Source of the DNA: Halomonas elongata
GTDB lineage: Bacteria; Pseudomonadota; Gammaproteobacteria; Pseudomonadales; Halomonadaceae
Length of the DNA: 64,000 nucleotides
Direction: 5' to 3'
NCBI RefSeq assembly: GCF_029081005.1
Contig: NZ_JAJQTQ010000001.1
Span: 124,001-188,000 of the forward strand
Under the pieces are notes generated by a model, which searched no databases, was not told where the DNA came from, and was given only the letters and a program-made list of their open reading frames with translations. Each line of letters starts with the position of its first letter. Positions within the stretch are counted from its first letter, which is position 1. Shown in pieces: positions 50,247 to 64,000 of this stretch. A program made the translations under genes and the position numbers.

Positions 50247-50421
50247 ATCCTGGGCATGCCGATAACGCTGGTGTTCCCGCGATGACTGGTACCCTTTCAT
50301 TCGCCGCGGGGATCAGCGTCTCCTGTACGACTCTCCTACTCCCATAGGCATAAACCGGCTTCATGCCCTCGGCGATTTGCGGCACCATGAAGGCCCGTTC
50401 CATCGCCGCGAAGGATTCGCC

Positions 50422-53400
50422 ATGCTCGCCACCGCAGAGACCGCCCTGACGCCCGGCTTCATGGTGATCCACGGCAACCGCCTGGAGGAACTGCGCGACC
50501 TGGCGGTGACCTGGATGCGCCATCATCCACTGGGGCCGCTCGAGGACGAGGTGATCCTGGTACAGAGCAACGGCATCAGCCAGTGGCTGAAGCTGGCGCT
50601 GGCCGCCGATCCGCCCGCGGGCGCCGGCATCGCCGCGGCGATGGACGTCACCCTTCCGGCGCGCTACCTGTGGCAGGCCTACCGTGCGGTGCTGGGAAGC
50701 GATGCCGTGCCGCCGGCCTCGCCGCTGGACAAGCCGCGGCTGATCTGGCGGCTGATGCGCCTGCTGCCGGAACTCTTGGATGACGAGATCTTCGCGCCCC
50801 TGGCGCGCTTTCTGGCCGACGATGATGACCTGCGCAAGCGCCACCAGCTCGCCGAGCGGCTGGCCGACCTCTTCGACCAGTACCAGGTCTATCGTGCCGA
50901 CTGGCTGTCCGCCTGGGCCGAGGGCCGCGACGAGCTGATCGATGCCCGCGGCCAGGCCAAGCCGCTGGCCGAGGACCAACGCTGGCAGCCGGCGTTGTGG
51001 CGGCGGCTGCGCGACGACATCGGAGAAGACGGCCTGGCTACCAGCCGCGCCTGGGTGCACACCCGCTTCCTCGAGGCCTGCCGCGAGCTGACGCCTGAGA
51101 GCCTTCAGCGGGGTTCTGGAAAGAGCCGTCCTTCAGGGCTTCCGCGCCGGGTGGTGGTGTTCGGCATCTCCTCGCTGCCCCGCCAGACCCTGGAGGCGCT
51201 CGCCGCCGTGTCCAAGGTCAGCCAGGTGCTGCTCTGCGTGCACAACCCCTGCCGCCACTACTGGGCGGACATCATCGAGCACAAGGACCTGCTGCGCGCC
51301 GCCCGCCGACGCCAGCGCCAACGCCCGGGCATGCCGCTGGAGCTCGACGACACCCAGCTGCACCTTCACGCCCAGCCGCTGCTCGCCGCCTGGGGCAAGC
51401 AGGGTCGCGACTACCTGCGCCTGCTCGACGAGTTCGACGACCAGGACGCCTACCGGGCGCTGTTCGACGCCGAGTCGATGCGCATCGACCTCTTCGATTC
51501 GCCGCTGGAGCAGGCCGAGGCCCCGGGGCTGCTGCAGCAATTGCAGGACGACATCCTCGAGCTGCGCCCGCCCCAGGAGACCCGCGAGGCCTGGCCGGCG
51601 GTGGACCCGGCTCGCGACCCCAGCCTGCGCTTCCACGTCGCCCACAGCGCCCTGCGCGAGGTGGAGATCCTCCACGACCAGTTGCTGGCCGCCTTCGACG
51701 CCGACCCCACCCTGCGCCCGCGCGACGTGCTGGTGATGGTGCCGGACATCGACACCTACGCCGCCGCCGTGCAGGCGGTGTTCGGCCGACTGCCGCCGGA
51801 CGATCCGCGCCACATCCCCTTCACCCTCTCCGACCAGACCAGCCGCCACCGCCAGCCGCTGCTGGTGGCGCTCGAGGCGCTGCTGCACCTGCCGGAGTCG
51901 CGGCTCACGGTGAGCGACCTGCTCGACCTGCTGGAGGTGCCCGCCCTGCGTGGTCGCTTCGGCCTGGACGCCGAGGCGCTACCGGTGCTGCGCCGCTGGA
52001 TCGAGGGCGCCGGCATCCGCTGGGGGCTCGACGCCGAGCAGCGTGCCCGGCTCGACCTGCCCGGCGGGCTCACCGCCAACACCTGGGCCTTCGGCCTGCG
52101 ACGGCTGCTGCTGGGCTACGCCGTCGGTGACACCGCCGAGGGCCCCTGGCACGACATCGAGCCCTATGGCGACATCGGCGGCCTGGAGGCGGCCCTGGCT
52201 GGCCCGCTGATGGACCTGCTCGACGTGCTCGAGGCCCAGTGGCGCGCGCTCAGCGAGCCCGCCGACGTGCCGACCTGGTGCCGCCGCCTGCGCGGGCTGC
52301 TGGCCGAGTGCTTCGCCGCCGAGGACGAGGCCGACCTCGCCACCCTCAACCGCCTGGGGGAGCTGCTCGAGGACTGGCAGGAGACCACCGAGGACGCCGG
52401 CCTGACCGAGGCCCTACCGCTCTCGGTGGTGCGCGAGCACTGGCTCGGCCAGCTCGACGAGGCCAACCTCTCCCAGCGCTTCCTGGCCGGCGCGGTGAAC
52501 GTCGCCACCCTGATGCCGATGCGCGCCATCCCGTTTCGCCACGTCTGCCTGCTGGGCATGAACGACGGCGACTACCCGCGCACCCAGCGCCCGTTGGACA
52601 TCGACCTGATGGGCCACGATTACCGCCCCGGCGACCGCTCGCGTCGCGAAGACGACCGCTACCTGTTCCTCGAGGCGCTGCTCTCGGCCCGCGACTGCCT
52701 GATGATCAGCTGGGTCGGCCGCAGCATCCACGACAATGCCACCCAGCCGCCCTCGGTGCTGCTCGGCCAGCTCCGCGACCACCTGGCCGCCGGCTGGCGG
52801 CTCGCCGGCTATGAGGACGACGCCGGCCAGGCCCTAGTCGACGCCCTGACCACCGCGCACCCACTGCAGCCCTTTAGCCGCGAATACTTTGAGACAGATA
52901 GCCCACTCTTCACCTACGCCCATGAATGGCGGGCGGTGCACGCCAACCTGCCAACAGCGCAAGGCGTCGCGGATGGCGAGCTGCCGCCGATGGCGCTGGA
53001 TAACGCCCTCCCCCTGGCGCGTCTCAGTGGTTTCCTCAAGGACCCGGTCAAGGCCTTCTTCACCACCCGGCTCGGCGTCTATCTCGAGCGCGAGGCGCTG
53101 GAGAGCCCCGACCACGAGCCCTTCGCCCTGGACGGCCTGGACCTCTGGCAGCTCCAGCAGGCGCTGATCGAGGCCGGGCGCCGCGCCGTGGACGAGGGCG
53201 AATCGCCGACGCCTGCCGTCCACGACACCCTGGAACGGCTGGAGCGCGAGGGCCGACTGGCCATGGGCGGCTTCGCCGAGCTGATGCGAGAGCATCTGGT
53301 CGAGCCGCTGGACAAGGTGCTCGGCGACTACGCCGAGCTGCTCGAGGCCTGGCCCCACGCCTGGGAGACGTCGGCCGCCGTGTCGCTGGAGCTCGCCACG

Positions 53401-54051
53401 AACGACGAACCGCTTTACATCGAGGACTGGCTGGACGGCCTGCGCGAGAACGAAGCGGGCGAACGCTGCCGGCTGGTGCTGATGACCAGCAGCCTGATCA
53501 ACAAGGGCAAGTACCACTGGAAGCACTGGCTGGCCCCCTGGGTCGCCCACCTGGCCGGCCAGCTCGCCCTCGGCCCCATGACCACCGAGCTGATCTCCCG
53601 CGCCGGCGGCGGCACCCTGGCGCCGCTGGACGCGGACACCGCCCGCGCCCATCTGGAAGCCATCGCCAAGGCCTGGCGCGCCGGCATGACCGCACCGCTG
53701 CCGCTGGCCCGAGACACCGCCTTCGCCTGGCACAAAGAGGGGGGCGGCGAACACGCCCTGGCCCGCGTCTTCGGAGGCGATGAGAAGAAAGCCGAGGAAG
53801 CCGATCTCAAGGCCTGGAAGGCCGCCGTCCAGGTGTTCGAGGGCAACGACTACACCCCCGGCGAGCGCGACCGCGATCCCTACCTGGCCCGCCAGTGGCG
53901 CGACCTGGAGAGCCTGGTGCGCCACCAGGCCGCCGGCCGACGCTTCACCGAATTGACCGCGGCGCTCTATGCCCCACTGCACGATGTGGTGAAGACCAAG
54001 GGCGGCGGCGATAAAAAGAAAGGCAGCAAGGGCCAGGGAGGCAAGGCATGA
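50422..54051 (+). CDS. recC: Exodeoxyribonuclease V subunit RecC
   Basis: This encodes a 1209-residue RecC, the Chi-recognising inactive helicase-like subunit of RecBCD. It starts near GFMVIHGNRLEELRDLAVTWM, the usual N-terminus, and contains VQSNGISQWLKLALA, FGISSLPRQTLEALAA and LLGMNDGDYPRTQRP. The ATG at 50422 follows AAGGA. An extra low-complexity stretch (QRGSGKSRPSGLPRR) near residue 235 is probably a surface loop. It overlaps recB by 4 bp. Order recC-recB-recD without ptrA differs from E. coli but is common in other gammaproteobacteria. Confidence 0.96.
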   Translation: MLATAETALTPGFMVIHGNRLEELRDLAVTWMRHHPLGPLEDEVILVQSNGISQWLKLALAADPPAGAGIAAAMDVTLPARYLWQAYRAVLGSDAVPPASPLDKPRLIWRLMRLLPELLDDEIFAPLARFLADDDDLRKRHQLAERLADLFDQYQVYRADWLSAWAEGRDELIDARGQAKPLAEDQRWQPALWRRLRDDIGEDGLATSRAWVHTRFLEACRELTPESLQRGSGKSRPSGLPRRVVVFGISSLPRQTLEALAAVSKVSQVLLCVHNPCRHYWADIIEHKDLLRAARRRQRQRPGMPLELDDTQLHLHAQPLLAAWGKQGRDYLRLLDEFDDQDAYRALFDAESMRIDLFDSPLEQAEAPGLLQQLQDDILELRPPQETREAWPAVDPARDPSLRFHVAHSALREVEILHDQLLAAFDADPTLRPRDVLVMVPDIDTYAAAVQAVFGRLPPDDPRHIPFTLSDQTSRHRQPLLVALEALLHLPESRLTVSDLLDLLEVPALRGRFGLDAEALPVLRRWIEGAGIRWGLDAEQRARLDLPGGLTANTWAFGLRRLLLGYAVGDTAEGPWHDIEPYGDIGGLEAALAGPLMDLLDVLEAQWRALSEPADVPTWCRRLRGLLAECFAAEDEADLATLNRLGELLEDWQETTEDAGLTEALPLSVVREHWLGQLDEANLSQRFLAGAVNVATLMPMRAIPFRHVCLLGMNDGDYPRTQRPLDIDLMGHDYRPGDRSRREDDRYLFLEALLSARDCLMISWVGRSIHDNATQPPSVLLGQLRDHLAAGWRLAGYEDDAGQALVDALTTAHPLQPFSREYFETDSPLFTYAHEWRAVHANLPTAQGVADGELPPMALDNALPLARLSGFLKDPVKAFFTTRLGVYLEREALESPDHEPFALDGLDLWQLQQALIEAGRRAVDEGESPTPAVHDTLERLEREGRLAMGGFAELMREHLVEPLDKVLGDYAELLEAWPHAWETSAAVSLELATNDEPLYIEDWLDGLRENEAGERCRLVLMTSSLINKGKYHWKHWLAPWVAHLAGQLALGPMTTELISRAGGGTLAPLDADTARAHLEAIAKAWRAGMTAPLPLARDTAFAWHKEGGGEHALARVFGGDEKKAEEADLKAWKAAVQVFEGNDYTPGERDRDPYLARQWRDLESLVRHQAAGRRFTELTAALYAPLHDVVKTKGGGDKKKGSKGQGGKA

Positions 54052-57000
54052 CGATGACGGAAGCCATGCAAGCGGCCGAGACGCCTCGGCTTGATCCCGT
54101 AGCGCTACCGCTCACCGGCAGCCGGCTGATCGAGGCCAGCGCCGGCACCGGCAAGACCTTCACCATCGCCCTGCTCTACCTGCGCCTGGTGCTCGGCCCC
54201 CGCGATGAAGCGGACGCGGCCAGCTTCCCCCGGCCGCTGACCCCGCCGGAAATTCTGGTGGTCACCTTCACCAACGCCGCCACCCAGGAGCTGCGCGACC
54301 GCATCCGCGCCCGGCTGGTGGAAGCCGCCGAGGCCTTTCAACCAGGCACCAGCACGATGGAGACAGGCGGCGGAAACCCCGAAGGGGCGCCGGGGCACGC
54401 CCCGTCCCTGACAGGCGATCTCTTCGCCGAACCGGTTGTGGATAAGCCAGCACCGGACGATGAGACGCCCAGCAGCGACCCGCTGATCGCCCTGCGCGAC
54501 AGCTACCCCCGCGAAAGCTGGCCGACCTGCGCCCGCCGCCTGCGGCTGGCCGCCGAGTGGATGGACGAGGCCGCGGTCTCCACCATCCACGCCTGGTGCC
54601 ACCGCATGCTGCGCGAGCACGCCTTCGACAGCGGCAGCCTGTTCGCCCTGGAGATGTCGCTGGACCAGTCGGAGATGGACCTGGAGATCGCCCGGGACTA
54701 CTGGCGCAGCTTCTACTACGACCTCGCCCCCGAGGCGCTGGAAATCGTCGCCCGCTACTGGACCACGCCGGACACCCTCAACGACACCGCCGCCCGGCTG
54801 CGCACCCATGCGAGCGCCCTGCCCGCGGCCCCGCCGCCGGCCGAGGCGCTTTCCAACTACCGCGAACAGCGCGCCGCGGCACTGGCCGAGCTCAAGGCGC
54901 CCTGGCCGGCCTGGCTCGACGAGCTGGAGGCGCTGCTCGAGGACGCCGCCAAGCGCAAGGCATTCAACGGCCAGAAGCTCAACGCCAAGAGCCGCGCCAA
55001 CTGGCTCGCCTCGCTGCGCGACTGGGCCCATGACCCAGAGCTTGCCGAGCCGAAGCTGACCGACGCCGCCTGGAAGCGCCTGACGCCCGAGGGCATCGCC
55101 GAGATCTGGAAGGAAGATCCCGTCCCGAATCTACCAGCGCTGGAGGCCCTGGAAGCGCTGCCGGAGCGTCTCGCCGAGCTGCCCGATCCCTTCGCCGACC
55201 TGCTCGCCCACGCCGTGCACTGGATGGCCGCGCGTCGCGAGACCGTGCAGCGCCGCCGCGCCGAGCTCGGTCCCGACGACCTGCTGCATCGACTGGACGC
55301 CGCCTTCGCGGGCGAGGCCGGCGAGACGCTGGCCGCGCGCATCCGCGAGCAGTTCCCGGTGGCGCTGGTCGATGAGTTCCAGGACACCGACCCGGTGCAG
55401 TACCGGCTCTTCGACCGGGTCTATGAGCTGGCCAAGAATCGTGGTGACAGCGCGGCTTCGGGCGCTGAAAAGAACGCGGCTTCGGGCGCTGAAAAGAGCG
55501 CGGTGCTTTTGATCGGCGACCCCAAGCAGGCGATCTACGCCTTCCGCGGCGCCGATATCCACACCTACCTCCAGGCCCGGCGCGACACCGCCGGGCGCCA
55601 CGTCACGCTCGGCACCAACTTCCGCTCCGCCGCGCCCATGGTCGAGGCAGTCAATCGGGTGTTCGCCCACGCCGAGCGGAGCGAATCCGGCGCCTTCCTG
55701 TTCCGCCGCGGGAACGACAACCCGGTGCCTTTTTCTCCAGTCGACGCGAATGGCAGGAAAGACGCTCTGGTCCGCCATGGCGCACCCCAGCCGGCGCTGA
55801 CGCTCTGGCACCTGGCCAGCGACGATACCCTGCCCAAGGGCGCCTACCTCAACGAGCTGGCCGGGCGCTGCGCCACCGAGATGGCCGCCCTGCTGCGCGA
55901 GGGCCAGGCCGGGCAGACGGGCTTCGAGCAGGTCAGTGGTGAAGAGCAGGGAGAATTACGCCCCCTGGCGCCATCGGACCTCGCCGTGCTGGTCAACAAC
56001 GCCGGCGAGGCCCGCGCCATCCGCGCCGCCCTGCTGGCCCGCGGCATCCGCAGCGTCTACCTCTCCGACAAGGAAGGCGTGTTCGAGACCGAGGCCGCCG
56101 CCGAGCTGGAGGTGTGGCTGGCCGCCTGCGCCGCGCCGGACAACGAGCGCTGCCTGCGCGCCGCCCTGGCCACGCCGAGCCTGGGCCTGAGCCTCGCCGA
56201 GCTCGACGCCCTGAATGGCGGCCCCCAGCAGGACGAGCTGGCCTGGGAGGCGCGGGTGATGCAGTTCCGCGACTACCACCGCCAATGGCAGCGCCGCGGC
56301 GTGCTGCCCATGCTGCACCGGCTGCTGGCCGACTTCGCCGTGCCCGGCCGGCTGCTGGCGGTGCCCGAGGGCGAGCGACGGCTCACCGACCTGCTGCACC
56401 TCGGCGAGCTGCTTCAGGAGGCTAGCGCCGAGATCGACGGCGAGCACGCCCTGCTGCGCTTTCTCGCCGAGTCCCGCGCCCATCCCCAGGCGCAGTCCGA
56501 CACCCACCGCCTGCGCCTGGAGAGCGACGCCGACCTGGTGCAGGTGGTGACCATCCACAAGTCCAAGGGCCTGGAATACCCGCTGGTGTTCCTGCCCTTC
56601 ATCGTCGCCTTCCGCCCTAAGAAGCAGGGCGACCTACCGCTGCAATGGCACGACGACGACGGCCACCTGCACCTGACACTCTCCGCCGACGAGGTGACAC
56701 TCGCCCGCGCCGACCACGAGCGCCTGGGCGAGGACCTGCGCAAGCTCTACGTCGCCCTGACCCGCGCCCGCCACGCCACCTGGCTCGGCCTGGCGCCGCT
56801 GGAGGCCATGGAACGCAGCGCCGTCGGCCACCTGATCTCCGGGGGCGAGGCACTGACGCCCGACAACCTGCGCCCGGCGCTCGAGGCGCTGGCCGACGAC
56901 AACCCCGGCGATCGCAACGAACAGGTGACGGTGCAGGACGCCCCCGAGGCCGATGCCACGCCGGTCGAGCTCGCCGCCGACGACGCGCCTCTCGGTGAAG

Positions 57001-57959
57001 CCCGCGCGCCGACCCGGGCGATCCGCGAGCACTGGTGGATCGCCAGCTACTCGGCGCTGCGCACCGGCGCCACGCCGGAGGAGGACAGCGCAGCAGCCAC
57101 CGCCGTCGAGGCCGAACCGGCCCCCGAGCCCACCACCGCCGACGAGGCGACGGCCATGGAGGTGATCGACGAGCCCTTCGATGCCGCCGCGGCTACGGTG
57201 AGCGAGGGTTCGCTTCACCGCTTCCCCCGCGGGCCCTCGGCGGGCACCTTCCTGCACGGCCTGCTGGAATGGGCCGGCGAGGAAGGCTTCGCCCGAGTGG
57301 CGGAAGACGCCGAACTGCGCGCCGACACCCTGGCCCGGCGCGCCAACCGTCGCGGCTGGGAGGGTCAGATCGCCGCCCTCGAACAGTGGCTACCGGAGCT
57401 CTTGACCACGCCGCTGCCGGTGCCGGATTCGAGCGATGGCGAGACCGCGCCGCTGCGCCTCGATGCCCTGAGCGACTATCGCATCGAGCTGGAATTCTGG
57501 TTCGCCGCGCATAAGGTCAACACACGCAAACTGGACGCCCTCGTAAGCGCTCACACACTCGGCGGGCGCCCCCGGCCGGCGCTCGAGCCTGACACCCTCA
57601 ACGGCATGCTCAAGGGCTTCATCGACCTGGTAGTGGAGCACGAAGGCCGCTTCTACGTGCTCGACTGGAAGTCCAACCACCTGGGCGCGGACGATGCCGC
57701 CTACACCGAGGCGGCGATGGCCGAGGCCGTGCTCGAGAAGCGCTACGACGTGCAGTACTGCCTCTACCTGCTGGCCCTGCACCGGCTGCTCGAGGCCCGG
57801 CTGCCGGACTACGACATCGAGCGCCACCTGGGCGGGGCGCTCTACGTCTTCCTGCGCGGCACCCGCGCACCCTCCCGCGGCGTGCACGCCGAACGCCCGC
57901 CGAGCGAGCTGATCCTCGCGCTCGATGCCCTGTTCCGCGCCGAGGAGGCCAACCCATGA
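54048..57959 (+). CDS. recB: Exodeoxyribonuclease V subunit RecB
   Basis: This encodes a 1303-residue SF1A helicase-nuclease. Walker A is [11 protein letters not shown] (about 29-39). Helicase motifs include [52 protein letters not shown]'s start, and [19 protein letters not shown]. The C-terminal RecB nuclease has [11 protein letters not shown] (about 1200) and [15 protein letters not shown]. Two unusual insertions are seen: [15 protein letters not shown] near residue 108 and a duplicated [14 protein letters not shown] at 469-484, just before motif III. Both should be loops. It overlaps recC and recD by 4 bp each. Confidence 0.97.
   Translation: [1303 protein letters not shown]
55452..55499 (+). 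repeat. 24-bp tandem duplication inside recB
   Basis: Two copies of GCGGCTTCGGGCGCTGAAAA plus AGAAC/AGAGC-type ends lie head to tail, differing by one base in 24. They keep frame and add one eight-residue unit. The recent look (nearly identical copies) suggests replication slippage. Confidence 0.85.
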
Positions 57960-60166
57960 CCCCGACATCATCCAACGCCGCCCCCCTCGGTGCTCATCCC
58001 ATCGATACCGACGCCGCCCCGGAAGCCGCGCTAATTCAAGCGCCCGAAACCGCGCTGAGCGATACCGGTGCGCTGTTCGCCCTGCTCGACCGCTGGGTCG
58101 ACCGCGGCTGGCTGCGCTCGCTGGACCGCGCCTTCGCCGCCTTCCTGCATCGCGAGGCGCGTAAGGACAATGAGGTGAGTGAGGCCTCACCCCTGCTGTT
58201 GCTGGCGGCGGCACTGGCCAGCCACCAGCTCGGCCGCGGCCACGTCTGCCTGGACCTCGCCCAGACGCTGGCCACCCCGGACCTCGCACTCTCGCTGCCG
58301 CCGGAGGGCGACAGCCTGGAGGACCCGCCGCCGCTGCCCAGCCGGGTGATGGCCGCGCTCGACCTCGACGCCTGGCGTGCCGCCCTGGCCCAGCCCGAAC
58401 TGGTGGCCACCGGCCCCGGCAGCACCCCGCTGGTGCTCGCCGGCACCGCCGAACGCCCCCGGCTCTACCTGCGCCGCTACTGGCAGCATGAGCAGGATAT
58501 CCACAGCCGGATCGTCGCGCGGCTGGGTGAAACGGATAGCGACGACGCCCCGGACGCGGCCCGCCTGCGCCCGATCCTCAACGCGCTCTTCCCCGACCGG
58601 GGCGATGCACCGCAAGCGATCGACTGGCAGAAGGCCGCCTGCGCCCTGGCCGGTCGCTCGCGCTTCGCGGTGATCACCGGCGGCCCCGGCACCGGCAAGA
58701 CCACCACCGTGGTGCGCCTGCTCGCCCTGCTCCAGGCTCAGGCACTCGGTGAAGGCCAGGGAGAAGGAGAGCGAGCCCTGCGCATCCGCCTGGCCGCCCC
58801 CACCGGCAAGGCCGCCGCCCGGCTCAACGAGTCCATCGCCGGCCAGGTAGCCAAGCTCGCCCTCGACAGCCTGGCCGACGATCCCGAGCGGCTGCGAGGC
58901 GTGATCCCCAAGGACGTCTCGACGCTACATAGATTGCTGGGCTCGCGACCGGACACCCGCCGCTTCCGCCACGACCGCCACAATCCTCTGCCGCTGGACG
59001 TGCTGGTGGTGGACGAGGCCTCGATGGTCGACGTGGGCATGATGGCCGCGATGCTCGAGGCACTGCCGCCCCGGGCGCGGCTGGTGCTGCTGGGCGACAA
59101 GGACCAGCTCGCCTCGGTGGAAGCCGGCTCCGTGCTGGGCGACCTGTGTGCCCGGGCCGAGCGCGGCCACTACACCCCGGCCACCACCGAGTGGCTGGCC
59201 CAGGCCACCGGCCAGCCGCTGCCCACGAACACCCTCGACGCCGACGGCCAGCCGCTCGACCAGAGCATCGCCATGCTGCGCGTCAGCCACCGCTTCACCG
59301 CCGACAGCGGCATCGGCCAGCTCGCCGCAGCGATCAACCTGGAGGCCGAGCCCGCCGCCAAGCGCAAGGCGATTGGCGACGCACTGGGCGCCGGCTTCGC
59401 AGACCTCTCGCACCACAAGCTTTCCGCCGACGACGAACGCGGCCTGGCTCGCCTGGCCGTGACCGGCTGCCCCGAGCGCTTTCCCGGAGGCCACAACGCC
59501 GACACACCGCCGGTGGGCTATCGCCACTTCCTGAGCGTGATGGCCGAGCGGCGCCCGGCGGACGACGCGGATCAACAAGCCTTCGATGACTGGGCCCGAG
59601 CGGTGCTGGCGGCCCACGGCGACTTCCAGCTGCTGTGCGCGCTGCGCCGCGGCCCCTGGGGCGTGGAAGGCCTGAACGAGCGGGTGCGCCAGGCGCTGGA
59701 GCGGGAGAAGCTGATCGGCAGCCAGGACGGCCGCCAACGCTGGTACCCCGGCCGCCCGGTGCTGGTCACCAAGAACGACTACGGCCTGGGGCTGATGAAC
59801 GGCGATATCGGCATCACCCTGGATATGCCGCGCCCCGATACCTCACCCAACGACAAGGGCCGACGCCTCCTACGGGTGGCCTTCCCCGCCGGCGACGGCA
59901 CCGACCGCATCAAGTGGGTGCTGCCCTCGCGCCTGCAGGCGGTGGAGACGGTGTTCGCGATGACGGTCCACAAGTCACAGGGCTCGGAGTTCACCCACGC
60001 CGCCCTGGTGCTGCCCGACGCGCCGAACCCCATTCTCACCCGAGAGCTGGTCTACACCGGCATCACCCGCGCCCGCCACTGGCTGACGCTGGTGGAAACC
60101 GGCCGCGGCCAACTGATGGACGCGGCGCAGCGGCGAGTGATGCGGGTGAGTGGGTTGGGAAGTTGA
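57956..60166 (+). CDS. recD: Exodeoxyribonuclease V subunit RecD
   Basis: This encodes a 736-residue SF1B 5'-3' helicase. Walker A is TGGPGTGKTTT (241-251), motif II is VVDEASMVD, then LLGDKDQLASVEAGSVLGDL, and the C-terminal motifs are FAMTVHKSQGSEFTHAALVLP and YTGITRARHWLTLVE. The N-terminal domain that contacts RecC is longer and alanine-rich. Its start overlaps recB by 4 bp. Two further partial copies of its 3' end lie downstream (60515-60600 and 62038-62500), but this copy is complete. Confidence 0.97.
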   Translation: MTPTSSNAAPLGAHPIDTDAAPEAALIQAPETALSDTGALFALLDRWVDRGWLRSLDRAFAAFLHREARKDNEVSEASPLLLLAAALASHQLGRGHVCLDLAQTLATPDLALSLPPEGDSLEDPPPLPSRVMAALDLDAWRAALAQPELVATGPGSTPLVLAGTAERPRLYLRRYWQHEQDIHSRIVARLGETDSDDAPDAARLRPILNALFPDRGDAPQAIDWQKAACALAGRSRFAVITGGPGTGKTTTVVRLLALLQAQALGEGQGEGERALRIRLAAPTGKAAARLNESIAGQVAKLALDSLADDPERLRGVIPKDVSTLHRLLGSRPDTRRFRHDRHNPLPLDVLVVDEASMVDVGMMAAMLEALPPRARLVLLGDKDQLASVEAGSVLGDLCARAERGHYTPATTEWLAQATGQPLPTNTLDADGQPLDQSIAMLRVSHRFTADSGIGQLAAAINLEAEPAAKRKAIGDALGAGFADLSHHKLSADDERGLARLAVTGCPERFPGGHNADTPPVGYRHFLSVMAERRPADDADQQAFDDWARAVLAAHGDFQLLCALRRGPWGVEGLNERVRQALEREKLIGSQDGRQRWYPGRPVLVTKNDYGLGLMNGDIGITLDMPRPDTSPNDKGRRLLRVAFPAGDGTDRIKWVLPSRLQAVETVFAMTVHKSQGSEFTHAALVLPDAPNPILTRELVYTGITRARHWLTLVETGRGQLMDAAQRRVMRVSGLGS

Positions 60167-60175
60167 TGGGCTCCC

Positions 60176-60460
60176 TTATCCATGCGGTTGATGAGTGCCA
60201 CTTTCGGCCAGGAACGGACTTTGTCGTGTCACGTCTGGCTCAGGGCATGGCTGTGTGTCCTGTTTGGCCACCTCTGGAAACGGGAACACCAGCCCCTTGT
60301 AGACCGGCTCGAACGTCCGAACGTACCCGCACACCGAACCCTGTAGCCGCTCCAAAGAGCGGTCTGTGGCATCAGCCGCTGCATAGGGCCGCCACTGACT
60401 GTTCTCTCGCATCACCATGACACCCGTATCTAAACAAAACCTTGGTTTTCTTTGCGTCAT
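60176..60460 (-). CDS. Hypothetical protein, doubtful
   Basis: This 94-codon frame starts MTQRKPRFCLDTGVMVMREN in the roughly 570-bp space after recD. It has no recognised domain, no signal peptide and no good ribosome binding site. Composition is unlike a membrane protein. It is included because nothing else explains the interval and the frame is open throughout. It may be a remnant of inserted DNA. Confidence 0.25.
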   Translation of the reverse strand: MTQRKPRFCLDTGVMVMRENSQWRPYAAADATDRSLERLQGSVCGYVRTFEPVYKGLVFPFPEVAKQDTQPCPEPDVTRQSPFLAESGTHQPHG

Positions 60461-60514
60461 GGCGTCATATCGTCGTTAGCTTCAGGCATGCCTGATGCGA
60501 TGCACCTGCATCCG

Positions 60515-60600
60515 CACGGGACCCGCGCCAAGCACTGGCTCATCCTGGTCGAGGCCGGGCGGGGTCCATTGCTTGATGCAATGGAACGGCGGGTGATACC
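60515..60600 (+). pseudogene. Degenerate remnant of a recD 3' end
   Basis: Translation gives GTRAKHWLILVEAGRGPLLD, continuing AMERRVIPG, which aligns without gaps with the RecD C-terminus GITRARHWLTLVETGRGQLM and so on. Nucleotide identity to recD is much lower than that of the copy at 62038-62500, so this is an older remnant. Only about 30 codons remain and there is no start codon in a plausible context. It lies between recD and the diguanylate cyclase gene. Confidence 0.7.
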
Positions 60601-60735
60601 GGGGATCATTGGCACTCACCTGACTTGCCGCTACCTTGAAACGTTTATATTTCACCAAGCCGGCATGAGAGGAGCTCACCTCCAAGGCCAGAGTGGTGAG
60701 GTTTTCACTCACTACAGGACGCGGAGAGTCAGCCT

Positions 60736-61941
60736 GTGCCGTCACCCAACACAAGATACCTCCTGCACCGGCTGACCGGTCAGTTCCGCGAAACGGCCAG
60801 GGAAGCGATGTATCGCCGGGAGATCGCGCCCAGGGTGCGGCTCGAATCCAGTCTGTCGCTCTGCGTGGCGGCGCTGGTCTTCGGCATGTTCGCCATCTCC
60901 GACTACCACTACACCGGCGTGAGCACGGAGCTCTATCTGCTGCTCGTCATGCGCCTGGTGGTGGTGGTCTCTTGCCTCGTTCTCGCTTTCCTGATCGGTC
61001 GCGTCGGCGACTATAACCGCCGGATCTGGCTACACGCCCTCCCCCTCTGGATCCTGGCGACGGGCATCATCCTGATCGTGCCCCTACGGCCCGAGAGTCT
61101 CCCCACCCAGGTCACCTCATTGCTAGTGGCCATCACGGCGTTCTACCTGCTGATCCCCAACCTCTTGCCCGTGGTGGCCATCGCCAGCCTCTATCTGAGC
61201 GTAGGCTTCCTGACCACGGCAGTGTCGGTGGCCGACATCTCTGTCGTGGTCACCCTGCGCATCCTGCTGCTGGTGATCATGGCCAACGCCGTGGGGTTCT
61301 TCGCGCTGCTGCGCCTGGAAACACTTCAGCGCAAGCAGTTCGCGCTCCTTCAGGACGAGCGTGTCCAGAACCGCCAGCTGGTCGAGGAGATCGCGCACCG
61401 CAAGTCGCTGGAGGCCCAGCTGCGCCAGGTCGCCGAGCAGGATGCGCTGACGGGCCTGGACTCGCGCCGCCACTTCATGGCGCGTGCCGAGGCGCTGCTG
61501 CGGCGCGCACGGCTCGAGAAGGCGCCCTTCAGCCTGTTCATGATCGACGTGGACCACTTCAAGGCCATCAACGACACCTGGGGGCACCGCCAGGGCGACA
61601 CGGTGCTGACCGCCATCGCGGAAACCTGCAAGCGCTCCCTTAGGCCCCAGGACGTGATCGGGCGCTTCGGCGGCGAGGAGTTCATGGTCGCCCTGCCAAA
61701 CACCTACCCTAAGGACGCGCGGGCGGTTGCGGAGCGCCTGCAGCAGAAGGTCAGCGAGCTGCCGGTGATAGACGCCATGCCCGACCACCGCCTGACCGTT
61801 ACCGTCGGCATCGCCGGAGTTCTCGACGAGAAAACCGACCTGGGCGTCCTGATCAACCAGGCCGACCGCGCCCTCTACGCCGGCAAGCACGGTGGCAGGA
61901 ACCGGGTCGTATTGGGCCACGAAGTGAAAGACGAGGTTTAA
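60736..61941 (+). CDS. Membrane-anchored diguanylate cyclase (GGDEF)
   Basis: This encodes a 401-residue protein from a GTG at 60736 with a GGAGA site nine bases upstream. Residues 40-195 form about six membrane helices; a short coiled coil (196-230, ERVQNRQLVEEIAHRKSLEAQL) leads to the GGDEF domain (235-395). The active-site motif is GGEEF (312-316), with DVDHFKAINDTWGHRQGD for metal and base binding. The product-inhibition I-site RxxD is RPQD (303-306), five residues before GGEEF. It is therefore expected to be active and feedback-regulated in making c-di-GMP. It lies between two recD 3'-end fragments and may be cargo of an inserted segment. Confidence 0.92.
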   Translation: MPSPNTRYLLHRLTGQFRETAREAMYRREIAPRVRLESSLSLCVAALVFGMFAISDYHYTGVSTELYLLLVMRLVVVVSCLVLAFLIGRVGDYNRRIWLHALPLWILATGIILIVPLRPESLPTQVTSLLVAITAFYLLIPNLLPVVAIASLYLSVGFLTTAVSVADISVVVTLRILLLVIMANAVGFFALLRLETLQRKQFALLQDERVQNRQLVEEIAHRKSLEAQLRQVAEQDALTGLDSRRHFMARAEALLRRARLEKAPFSLFMIDVDHFKAINDTWGHRQGDTVLTAIAETCKRSLRPQDVIGRFGGEEFMVALPNTYPKDARAVAERLQQKVSELPVIDAMPDHRLTVTVGIAGVLDEKTDLGVLINQADRALYAGKHGGRNRVVLGHEVKDEV

Positions 61942-62037
61942 AGCAGCCCCCCGATACCGCTACCTACCTCACATCCCAACAGGAGCGGTCAGCGGCCCTG
62001 GCAGCTCCATGATGGCCTCCCGCGGAATCGGCCTGGT

Positions 62038-62500
62038 GAAAAAGCTGATCGACAGCCAGGAGGGCCGCCAACGCTGGTACCCCAACAGCCCGGTGCTGGT
62101 CACCAAGAACGACTACGGCCTGGGGCTGATGAACGGCGATATCGGCATCACCCTGGACATGCCGCGCCCGAACACTTCCCCCAACGGTAACAGCCGCCGT
62201 CTGCTGCGGGTGGCCTTCCCCGCCGGCGACGGCACTGATCGCATCAAGTAGGTACTGCCCTCGCGCCTGCAAGCCGTAGAAACCGTCTTCGCCATGACCG
62301 TGCACAAGTCCCAAGGCTCGGAGTTCACCCACGCCGCCCTGATACTGCCCGACGCGCCCAACCCCATCCTCACCCGGGAACTGGTCTACACCAGCATCAC
62401 CAGCGACCGCCACTGGCTGACGCTGGTGGAAACCGGCCGCGGCCAGCTGATGGACGCGTCACAGAGACGGGTGATGAGGGTGAGTGGGTTGGGGAGTTGA
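62038..62500 (+). pseudogene. Partial recD duplicate (3' end) with an internal stop
   Basis: This stretch matches recD from codon about 584 to the stop: KKLIDSQEGRQRWYPNSPVL, then NDYGLGLMNGDIGITLDMPR and so on to RRVMRVSGLGS. Divergence is largely at third codon positions, so it evolved under selection as a recD allele before becoming a fragment. An in-frame TAG (62249-62251) replaces the TGG of IKWVLP. Similarity continues a few bases past the stop (GGCTCCCTTA in both). There is no promoter or 5' part. It is best read as a displaced recD tail from recombination or element insertion. Confidence 0.9.
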
Positions 62501-63145
62501 TAGGCACCGGCTCCCTTATTAATGTCACGGACGCGACTCGCATTCTGGTCATCGGTGGAAACTCGAAGGTGAGACCGCTTGTTCCATTGGCATATCCACA
62601 AACGCTCATGTGTTCATTTGGATATGTTCATACTGTAAGTGCTCACTTGGATTGTAACTGGCTGCTTATGAACACGAACACCGCGGGATGCAGGCTGTGC
62701 TCGCTCAGGTATACTCAAATGGTTACGGTCTCAGAAGCCCATCGACAGGCAGACCGACGCGGCTCTACAGGATGAACGCCGAGGACGCACAGCTTGCAGA
62801 TTATTTGCTCGTCTGTGTGCCCTGGTTTGTTTTTGCGAACCACCCGAGACGGCCAGGGGATAGACCAGAAGGCGGACTCGGCGTGGCTGTGCGTGTCTCT
62901 CAGGGAAGCAGGGGCATAAACCGGATCCCTACGGGAAGAGCTTGTCGACGCTTGGAAAGGCGCTCGCCGATGGATGGATATTGCTTCTGGTCCTCCCTAA
63001 TGATATGACTTCAGGATATTATCGTTGACACTGAGGCAAAGTGATGGGGCAACCCATAAACTAATTCTGAGAATGTCTGGCATGATCTTTTTTTTCATGC
63101 AAATTTTAAATGGACATGAATCATCAAGATAAGCAGGAATAAACG
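62501..63145. other. Non-coding or degraded interval before the FRG gene
   Basis: About 645 bp without a supported gene. Short open frames here lack ribosome binding sites and recognisable domains. GC content falls along the interval, and 63010-63145 is AT-rich and probably holds the promoter of the next gene. Repeated words such as TGTTCAT and ATATG near 62600-62680 are visible but form no clear structure. It has the look of a junction between the host chromosome and acquired DNA. Confidence 0.5.
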
Positions 63146-64000
63146 ATGTGGGATGAGATACCTCAGATTGAGCATCACAATGCCTCAGAACTTCTGAAAC
63201 ATTTTATTGCCAACCAAAGTGCGGGCATTATTTATAGAGGGCTAGGCCATCAGACTTGGACTCTCAGCCCATCAATTTCAAGGGCCACAGGGTCTCGCAA
63301 GCTGAATGCCATCTACGCTGATGACTCAAGGGCATTTAAGGAAATCGCGTACTTAGCAAGATTTGTAAATGCTTGCGATGATGCCGGGCTAAAAGTGGCT
63401 GGAGATAGCGACCAGCTAAGAGAATTTCTATTAGAACCAAGAGGGCCGAACAGTCATGGACGTGTCGTAGATTTATTTAAGTACCCAAGCCTTTGGCCGT
63501 CAGATGACAATGCTGTATTTCACTTCCTTGCACAAGCACAGCACCACGGGGTTCCTACACGACTCTTAGACTGGACAACTTCACCATTAGTTTCTTGCTA
63601 CTTTACTGTTTCCCAGGCCATACATGAACGGAGAAGGCTGCTTTCACAGAGAGAAGATGCAAACCTTTCAGAGTGGATGCTCGCCGTTGTAGAACTTGAC
63701 ACAATTCAAGCAGCAGGATTCAAGGAAACCTTTAAGATTAGACATGCTCCAGGCTCCACCAGCCAGAACTTAGCCGCTCAGAAGGGGCGCTTTACGTTTA
63801 TCAAAGGCTTTGAGCTTGGTGATCTTGATCTTTTGAATCATAGACATTCCCGGAACTACCTAAAAAGGCATCTTCTCCCTCTTTCGGAAGCATACAATCT
63901 GATGCGACAGATAGAAATGTTAGGAGTAACTACAGCGACACTCTTTCCTGGCCACGACGGTGCTGCGAAAGACTCAATTGAAACCATGCTTCTGGAAGAT
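63146..64000 (+). CDS. FRG-domain protein (3' end outside window)
   Basis: The frame is open from ATG 63146 (AGGAA at 63134-63138) to the window end, 285 codons. It starts MWDEIPQIEHHNASELLKHF. The FRG domain is recognised by IIYRGLGHQTWTLSPSISR and HFLAQAQHHGVPTRLLDWTTSPLVSCYF, containing the family's characteristic PTRLLDWT. FRG domains have no established biochemical activity; they are frequent in variable genomic islands. Composition is strikingly AT-richer than all genes before 62.5 kb, pointing to horizontal transfer. The protein may be nearly complete (most are 250-400 residues). Confidence 0.88.
   Translation, partial: MWDEIPQIEHHNASELLKHFIANQSAGIIYRGLGHQTWTLSPSISRATGSRKLNAIYADDSRAFKEIAYLARFVNACDDAGLKVAGDSDQLREFLLEPRGPNSHGRVVDLFKYPSLWPSDDNAVFHFLAQAQHHGVPTRLLDWTTSPLVSCYFTVSQAIHERRRLLSQREDANLSEWMLAVVELDTIQAAGFKETFKIRHAPGSTSQNLAAQKGRFTFIKGFELGDLDLLNHRHSRNYLKRHLLPLSEAYNLMRQIEMLGVTTATLFPGHDGAAKDSIETMLLED

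Follow-up and report, generated by a model that had tools for sequence, protein, structure and literature searches.

The stretch of DNA analysed here (the window) comprises 64,000 nucleotides of Halomonas elongata, bases 124001-188000 of contig C82 in a genome of 4.18 Mb in 170 contigs. We are concerned with its recD gene and with the truncated recD ends that lie behind that gene. The intact recD (57956..60166, plus strand, taken from the list of open reading frames, ORFs) is the last gene of recC-recB-recD; together with recC (50377-54051) and recB (54048-57959), named by similarity and gene order, it belongs to the final genes of the window. Its protein is matched in 49 of 58 genomes, the window's own included. 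Throughout the text, G numbers stand for the genomes compared and L numbers for the loci that were fetched.

Two truncated recD ends behind an intact recD

Behind the intact recD there are two truncated recD 3' ends, both in recD orientation. An earlier note, made from the sequence alone, had described them as a short, very diverged recD tail and a longer, closer one, and both are real: a protein search of the own genome with recD at E 0.001 returned recD, the short copy (E=6.7e-5) and the long copy (E=5.6e-88) as its sole matches. The short, decayed end (60518..60598, plus strand) corresponds to recD codons about 703-729 and is weak when taken alone. It is confirmed by a single unbroken DNA match (80%) with G116 and G086, which covers the recD-derived bases and the spacer and reaches into a diguanylate cyclase gene; in both genomes this gene directly follows an intact recD. 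The short copy is 81% identical to the recD of G116, compared with 69% to its own.

The long copy (62042..62500, plus strand) covers codons 585-736, that is, the last 152 codons and the stop. It shares 408 of 459 bases with the main recD. The earlier note had said that it differs mostly at silent positions and carries a stop codon, and this is what we see: 36 of the 51 differences are at third positions, 31 of the changed codons are synonymous and 14 are non-synonymous (among them an in-frame change from TGG to TAG at codon 654, window 62249-62251). It had also placed the end of the homology just past the recD stop; the likeness indeed extends for about 22 bases 3' of it (GGCTCCCTTAT), with a 6-base indel. 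The native post-recD stretch at 62501..62524 (plus strand, GGCTCCCTTATT) is common to the sequence downstream of the main recD.

What the copies are can be seen from their neighbours. The cyclase gene (60736..61941, plus strand, GGDEF, Pfam PF00990) is found directly behind intact recD in G116, G086, G099, G030 and G134, and is therefore an old recD neighbour; the short copy, the spacer and the cyclase gene are collinear with recD and cyclase in these five genomes. Next to it lies the 3' end of another gene (61980..62040, minus strand, EAL-type as judged by eye), which is broken at 62040 and joined there to recD codon 585 of the long copy. In G100, the equivalent of window 60437-62040 (81%) stands at a locus other than that of recD and runs on into this EAL-type gene. 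The long copy and the next 220 bp, on the other hand, are collinear with the intact recD of G187 (93%), and since the same 220 bp follow directly behind intact recD there, the FRG side of the locus (described below) goes with the long copy. Both copies are thus old recD ends with their old neighbours still attached, because each is collinear with an intact recD and its neighbour elsewhere, and the locus is layered, a stack of old recD ends.

The earlier note had put the arrival of the cyclase gene first and, possibly, that of the FRG segment second. This order does not hold, as the cyclase gene is an old recD neighbour and the FRG side is tied to the long copy. The more decayed short copy is nearer to recD and the less decayed long copy is farther out. 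Given this order of decay, the simplest reading is that the latest event placed an already layered piece (the insert directly behind recD, the short end, the cyclase gene and the gene stub) before the long end, the recombinase stub and the FRG island. The first piece would then be the donor and the second the resident.

The remaining features of the locus are as follows. The newest insert, directly behind recD (60167..60436, plus strand), was compared with 117 other recD regions and with the own genome. Its initial 55 bases or so are similar to the post-recD sequence of G129 and G168, the remainder has no match in this set, and a 94-amino-acid antisense ORF inside it has no Pfam family. The stretch that follows (60437..60517, plus strand) accompanies the short copy and the cyclase gene in G100, too. 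Behind the long copy, a stub of a serine recombinase gene (62524..62617, minus strand, the initial 35 or so codons, including a stop) is cut at the old recD end; in G189 an intact serine recombinase gene adjoins the same FRG gene (L193 2134-3980). A transposon end at 62525 was considered and rejected, since matches start there only because this recombinase gene, which continues elsewhere, is cut here. The FRG-domain gene (63146..64000, plus strand, running on to about 64042; Pfam PF08867) is the start of a defence island which continues beyond the window with an AbiJ-like gene, a DUF6338 gene and a reverse transcriptase, and in which PADLOC identifies PDC-S15, AbiJ and RT_V (a reverse transcriptase class). 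In G189, G130 and G117 a cassette 94-95% identical to the FRG/AbiJ-like one is located on a contig that does not carry recD, which indicates that the cargo moves. No tRNA gene was found in the window by ARAGORN. Beyond the window, at L034 5367-5768 and 10239-10886, there is an apparent frameshifted nucleosidase-like remnant near an intact copy, and nucleosidase-like genes like those of L034 recur behind recD in other genomes.

Truncated recD ends in the family

We searched for the recD 3' end in 275 genomes of the family, of which 267 matched, and repeated the search in 73 genomes with more than one match (G016, G019, G075 and G078, with two matches each, were left out). We kept matches of 45% identity or more whose open frame was shorter than 600 amino acids, and removed intact helicase-like frames. 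Truncated recD 3' ends are present in at least 52 of the 275 genomes, the own genome included. There are 51 matched pieces, representing 44 copies in 37 genomes, that lie at most 20 kb downstream of recD and on its strand; within the same 20 kb, no copy among the matches kept is upstream and none is on the opposite strand. Likewise, the 118 recD regions which we fetched have no opposite-strand recD match at E 0.001. Six further pieces are distant on the recD contig and 17 are on other contigs. Among the weak matches that were dropped, one lies near recD but on the opposite strand (G232, 34%), and two others are on the same strand and downstream (G084 and G173, 39%). The main recD itself is broken in G243 and G287.

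The cargo between recD and the copies varies, as judged from the first ORFs of the recD regions and from those ORF tables of 58 loci that were seen. Copies occur in 38 of the 118 regions, which is not a frequency, since both the 58-locus and the 118-region sets were partly picked for carrying copies. Some inserts measure only 0.35-1.2 kb. Most copies start abruptly, with identity to the own recD changing from about 25% to about 60-90% between adjacent six-codon blocks, and in 47 copies the start is between 58 and 512 bases away from the recD end. Among the 47 copies in the 118 regions, 19 run on into DNA which is found directly behind the intact recD of another species, both copies of the window being among them. 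Taken together, the census and the collinearity bear out the central suggestion of the earlier note, that DNA was repeatedly inserted at the recD 3' end, displacing the old end, with variable cargo in relatives. The outcome which the note named as refuting it, the same fragments and cargo in all relatives, is not what we find.

For 44 copies, the mean identity is 0.835 to the own recD and 0.827 to the recD of the nearest relative, while the intact recD genes of these pairs are 0.909 identical. As the copies are equally far from both, many of them may be old. Some are clearly of the own lineage, being nearest to their own recD: the first copy of G268 (0.916 versus 0.845), the copy of G269 (0.931 versus 0.899) and that of G123 (0.896 versus 0.815). 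A foreign origin of the copies in general was rejected, since the finding that 42 of 47 are closer to the recD of some other species is the effect of taking the best of 117. We keep it for single cases only, namely the short copy of the window and G126. In the latter, two recD ends (L068 5899-6102 and 7086-7402) lie at a distance of 365 kb from the genome's own recD. These ends match the recD of the window at 94% (86-100% in protein), compared with 79% for the own recD end of G126, and they flank an acetyltransferase-like gene among genes that look defence-like by eye. In G126, recD ends have thus travelled with cargo.

Outside the family, no truncated copies were recognised among the matches listed for a sample of 244 genomes of the order (10 of them from the family), in which diverged copies would be missed, as the query came from this family. 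One short-frame match in this sample (G049) is probably part of a main gene that is divided between contigs. Of 200 plasmid records with a recD match (30 listed), three reach 60% identity: a Halomonas plasmid of 1.8 Mb, a Paraburkholderia plasmid of 1.4 Mb and a Halomonas plasmid of 229 kb with an annotated recD, the two Halomonas matches being at 72.5% and 63.4%. None of 326 phage records with a match reaches this level (30 listed). Separately, second recD-like frames of about 690-730 amino acids, with 61-64% identity over the tail, exist elsewhere in G188 (C2), G269 (C25), G232, G240, G245, G247, G251 and G156; perhaps they belong to a second recBCD.

The G-rich recD end and the genes behind it

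At its very end, recD contains a G-rich motif of rare codons (60146..60160, plus strand, GTGAGTGGGTTGGGA), where the conservation in the family stops; its counterpart at the end of the long copy is at 62480..62494 (plus strand, GTGAGTGGGTTGGGG). The last codons read V-S-G-x in 107 of 118 recD genes. In these 107, the serine is AGT in 90 cases (6% elsewhere in the recD 3' region), the glycine is GGG in 93 (10% elsewhere) and the codon after V-S-G is TTG in 63 (otherwise 5% of leucines). A few bases past the motif the information content drops to near zero. Four G-runs, a possible quadruplex, are found within the last 75 bases of 48 of the 118 genes, compared with 0.9 expected by synonymous shuffling (at most 4 genes in 200 runs), and in none of 20 comparison genomes, of which four belong to the family and have one recD match each. 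The quadruplex score is highest at the recD end (0.99), with nearly the same value at codons 553-589 (0.91).

In part of the literature on Neisseria pilE, quadruplexes are reported to act in recombination. Potentially, the recD end could be such an active recombination element, its putative quadruplex motif starting or bounding recombination in a Chi-like or pilE-like manner and loading defence cassettes. If this were true, defence cassettes would be loaded beside the gene that guards DNA ends. We consider it very doubtful: copies are carried by 32 of 79 genes with the strict motif and by 14 of 39 without it (p=0.69), so that the motif does not predict them. The near-equal score at codons 553-589 also counts against its importance, as does the fact that the motif is not abundant in the own genome. 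The odd G-rich end nevertheless makes the choice of this site a testable question.

To see what kind of genes stand behind recD, we took, in 30 genomes drawn at random from 112, the first ORF with 150 or more codons in the 5 kb downstream of the gene, and control ORFs 10.5-16.5 kb away in 30 drawn at random from 50. At a cut-off of 1e-10, PADLOC matched the first ORF behind recD in 11 of the 30 genomes (weakly in G219) and the control ORF in 3 of 30, one of which (G059) is inside a stack; the samples are small, and as ORFs were chosen by length some may be spurious in both sets. The matches behind recD include Drt3b, AbiU, GajB, LmuB, RmrT and type I restriction and methylase genes.

Possible routes to the stack

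We think that the recD 3' end is probably a recurrent landing place, with DNA stacked there by recD-anchored, homology-facilitated illegitimate recombination. Foreign DNA bearing another recD end would pair with the resident recD on one side, the intact end then coming from the donor, and its other end would be linked, by a non-homologous joint, to a point within the old recD end or close to it. The new piece would then sit directly behind the intact recD, and the previous recD end, with its neighbours attached, would be cut at a variable point and moved outward. Repeats of this event would give a stack in which recD is followed by the newest DNA, then by an old recD end and older DNA, and outermost by a still older recD end and the oldest DNA. 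The layering, the direction and the variable joints follow directly from the comparison of the loci, and the novel joints at 62040 and 62524 interrupt unrelated genes.

The earlier note proposed to look for an integrase beyond 64 kb; none was found near recD among the matches listed. In 20 genomes with copies (the own genome included), the 100 kb on either side of recD on its contig contain none of the 150 listed of 158 tyrosine recombinase (Phage_integrase) matches and none of the 15 serine recombinase (Resolvase) matches; draft contigs limit such distance searches. The nearest listed integrase on a recD contig is about 125 kb away (G133). The lack of a nearby recombinase among these matches, together with inserts of a few hundred bases, fits recD-anchored homology-facilitated illegitimate recombination.

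Several results weigh against this mechanism. Unguided joining would not predict clustering, and yet the starts of 16 of 47 copies cluster at -132 to -157 and those of 9 at -256 to -271. The first cluster is partly explained by deletions inside the copies: about 90 bases are missing between two GTGCTGCCC repeats in G185 and G110, and a similar deletion of about 90 bases is seen in the G012/G111/G133 group. For 28 of the 47 copies there is no collinear partner in the set compared, and the donors are not seen. Measured against a nearest relative chosen beforehand, a copy is closer to the relative's recD in 14 of 44 cases and not closer in 25, with 5 ties. Replacement by donor ends should bring the recD 3' segment into conflict with the rest of recD; in a test with 54 sequences, this segment, which is short and gives low power, conflicts at 4 of 14 supported splits, and four control segments at 8 of 24, 12 of 23, 6 of 14 and 7 of 26. 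Nor does the identity at four-fold silent sites rise consistently toward the recD 3' end. On these last two results, an interspecies sweep of recD ends was rejected. As to the claim in the earlier note that the inserting DNA brings its own recD 3' end, displacement of the old end stands, and replacement of the recD end receives no support from the trees, which show no excess of conflict.

We weighed recD-anchored recombination against three other explanations. One is that site-specific integrative elements, with an attachment site in recD and a replacement recD 3' end, inserted here and later lost their integrases, much as e14 and phage 21 insert in icd carrying a replacement 3' end. An intact gene followed by its displaced 3' ends is the hallmark of such elements, and both the second cluster of starts and the conservation of the G-rich motif at the DNA level would suit them. 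However, apart from the lack of recombinases near recD among the matches listed, the starts span 450 bases with no fixed crossover point, the inserts are as small as 0.35 kb, and no small plasmid or phage carrier is among the matches listed. When the 58 loci were scanned for motifs, a single convincing tyrosine-recombinase-like ORF came up, at 15 kb from recD (L083, G080), and two further hits look spurious (L038, L039). We regard integrative elements as unlikely.

It is quite improbable that the host duplicated its own recD end in place and that the copies then decayed, with chance insertions between them. The 19 copies which continue into DNA behind the intact recD of another species mark old junctions, the short copy of the window is nearer to the recD of G116 than to its own, and the distant ends of G126 are more like the window's recD than G126's own recD end is; all three speak against duplication, even though the copies of G268, G269 and G123 are nearest to their own recD and the average copy is as near to its own recD as to that of the nearest relative. 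Finally, rearrangements of the chromosome (relocation of recBCD, inversions) could leave recD ends behind while defence genes accumulate independently. Such events would account for the pieces distant on the recD contig or on other contigs, and for the short copy, cyclase and neighbouring gene at the non-recD locus of G100. But several of the off-contig pieces are near contig ends and may reflect assembly breaks, and rearrangement alone does not predict 44 copies close behind recD in a single orientation, which makes it highly improbable.

Comparison with known systems

The integrative elements e14 and phage 21 resemble the recD site in that the 3' end brought by the element restores an intact gene and the old end is displaced. 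Unlike them, with one integrase element and one fixed crossover, the recD site has variable starts, and neither an integrase at one end, among the matches listed, nor a single crossover point was found. What we find instead, an intact anchor followed by truncated remnants on the same strand, joined to their old neighbours, with variable, unrelated cargo and no dedicated recombinase among the matches listed, is the pattern of a displacement array.

Such arrays of effector and orphan immunity genes are described for the type VI secretion system (T6SS) of V. cholerae, for which homology-facilitated illegitimate recombination has been proposed in the part of PMC5361080 considered here. There, too, a conserved upstream anchor has new modules placed beside it and old 3' ends displaced downstream in an ordered array. 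According to the same part of that paper (PMC5361080), the anchor in V. cholerae forms part of a toxin-delivery locus, and the immunity genes that are displaced may be under selection. At the recD site, by contrast, it is the end of a housekeeping repair gene that serves as anchor, for cargo unrelated to that gene. In the Rhs and contact-dependent inhibition (CDI) systems the displaced pieces code for alternative toxin tips and can be switched in again, whereas the recD ends look like dead fragments. Orphan Rhs/CDI modules (mentioned in PMC5361080; see also PMC3967940) share with recD that a full-length gene is followed by a string of its displaced 3' ends.

The enrichment of defence genes next to a core gene, as seen behind recD, is what characterises a core defence hotspot. 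In the excerpt of PMC10250203 on which we draw, defence genes of Pseudomonas aeruginosa likewise recur at one fixed place between core genes; compared with that description, the recD site in addition retains truncated core-gene ends that record past insertions.

Displacement arrays and defence hotspots are thus already known. No report of the recD site was found in the open-licence PubMed Central literature searched, and what is new is the housekeeping-gene anchor with its family-wide record. Since each truncated recD end marks an old border, the order of defence-gene gains can partly be recovered without mobile-element markers, and the family-wide insertion hotspot keeps a readable record of past gene gains. 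This points to a way in which defence islands on the chromosome can expand with a housekeeping gene as their anchor and no integrase resident at the site, through a mechanism like that proposed earlier for T6SS and Rhs loci in the cited part of PMC5361080.

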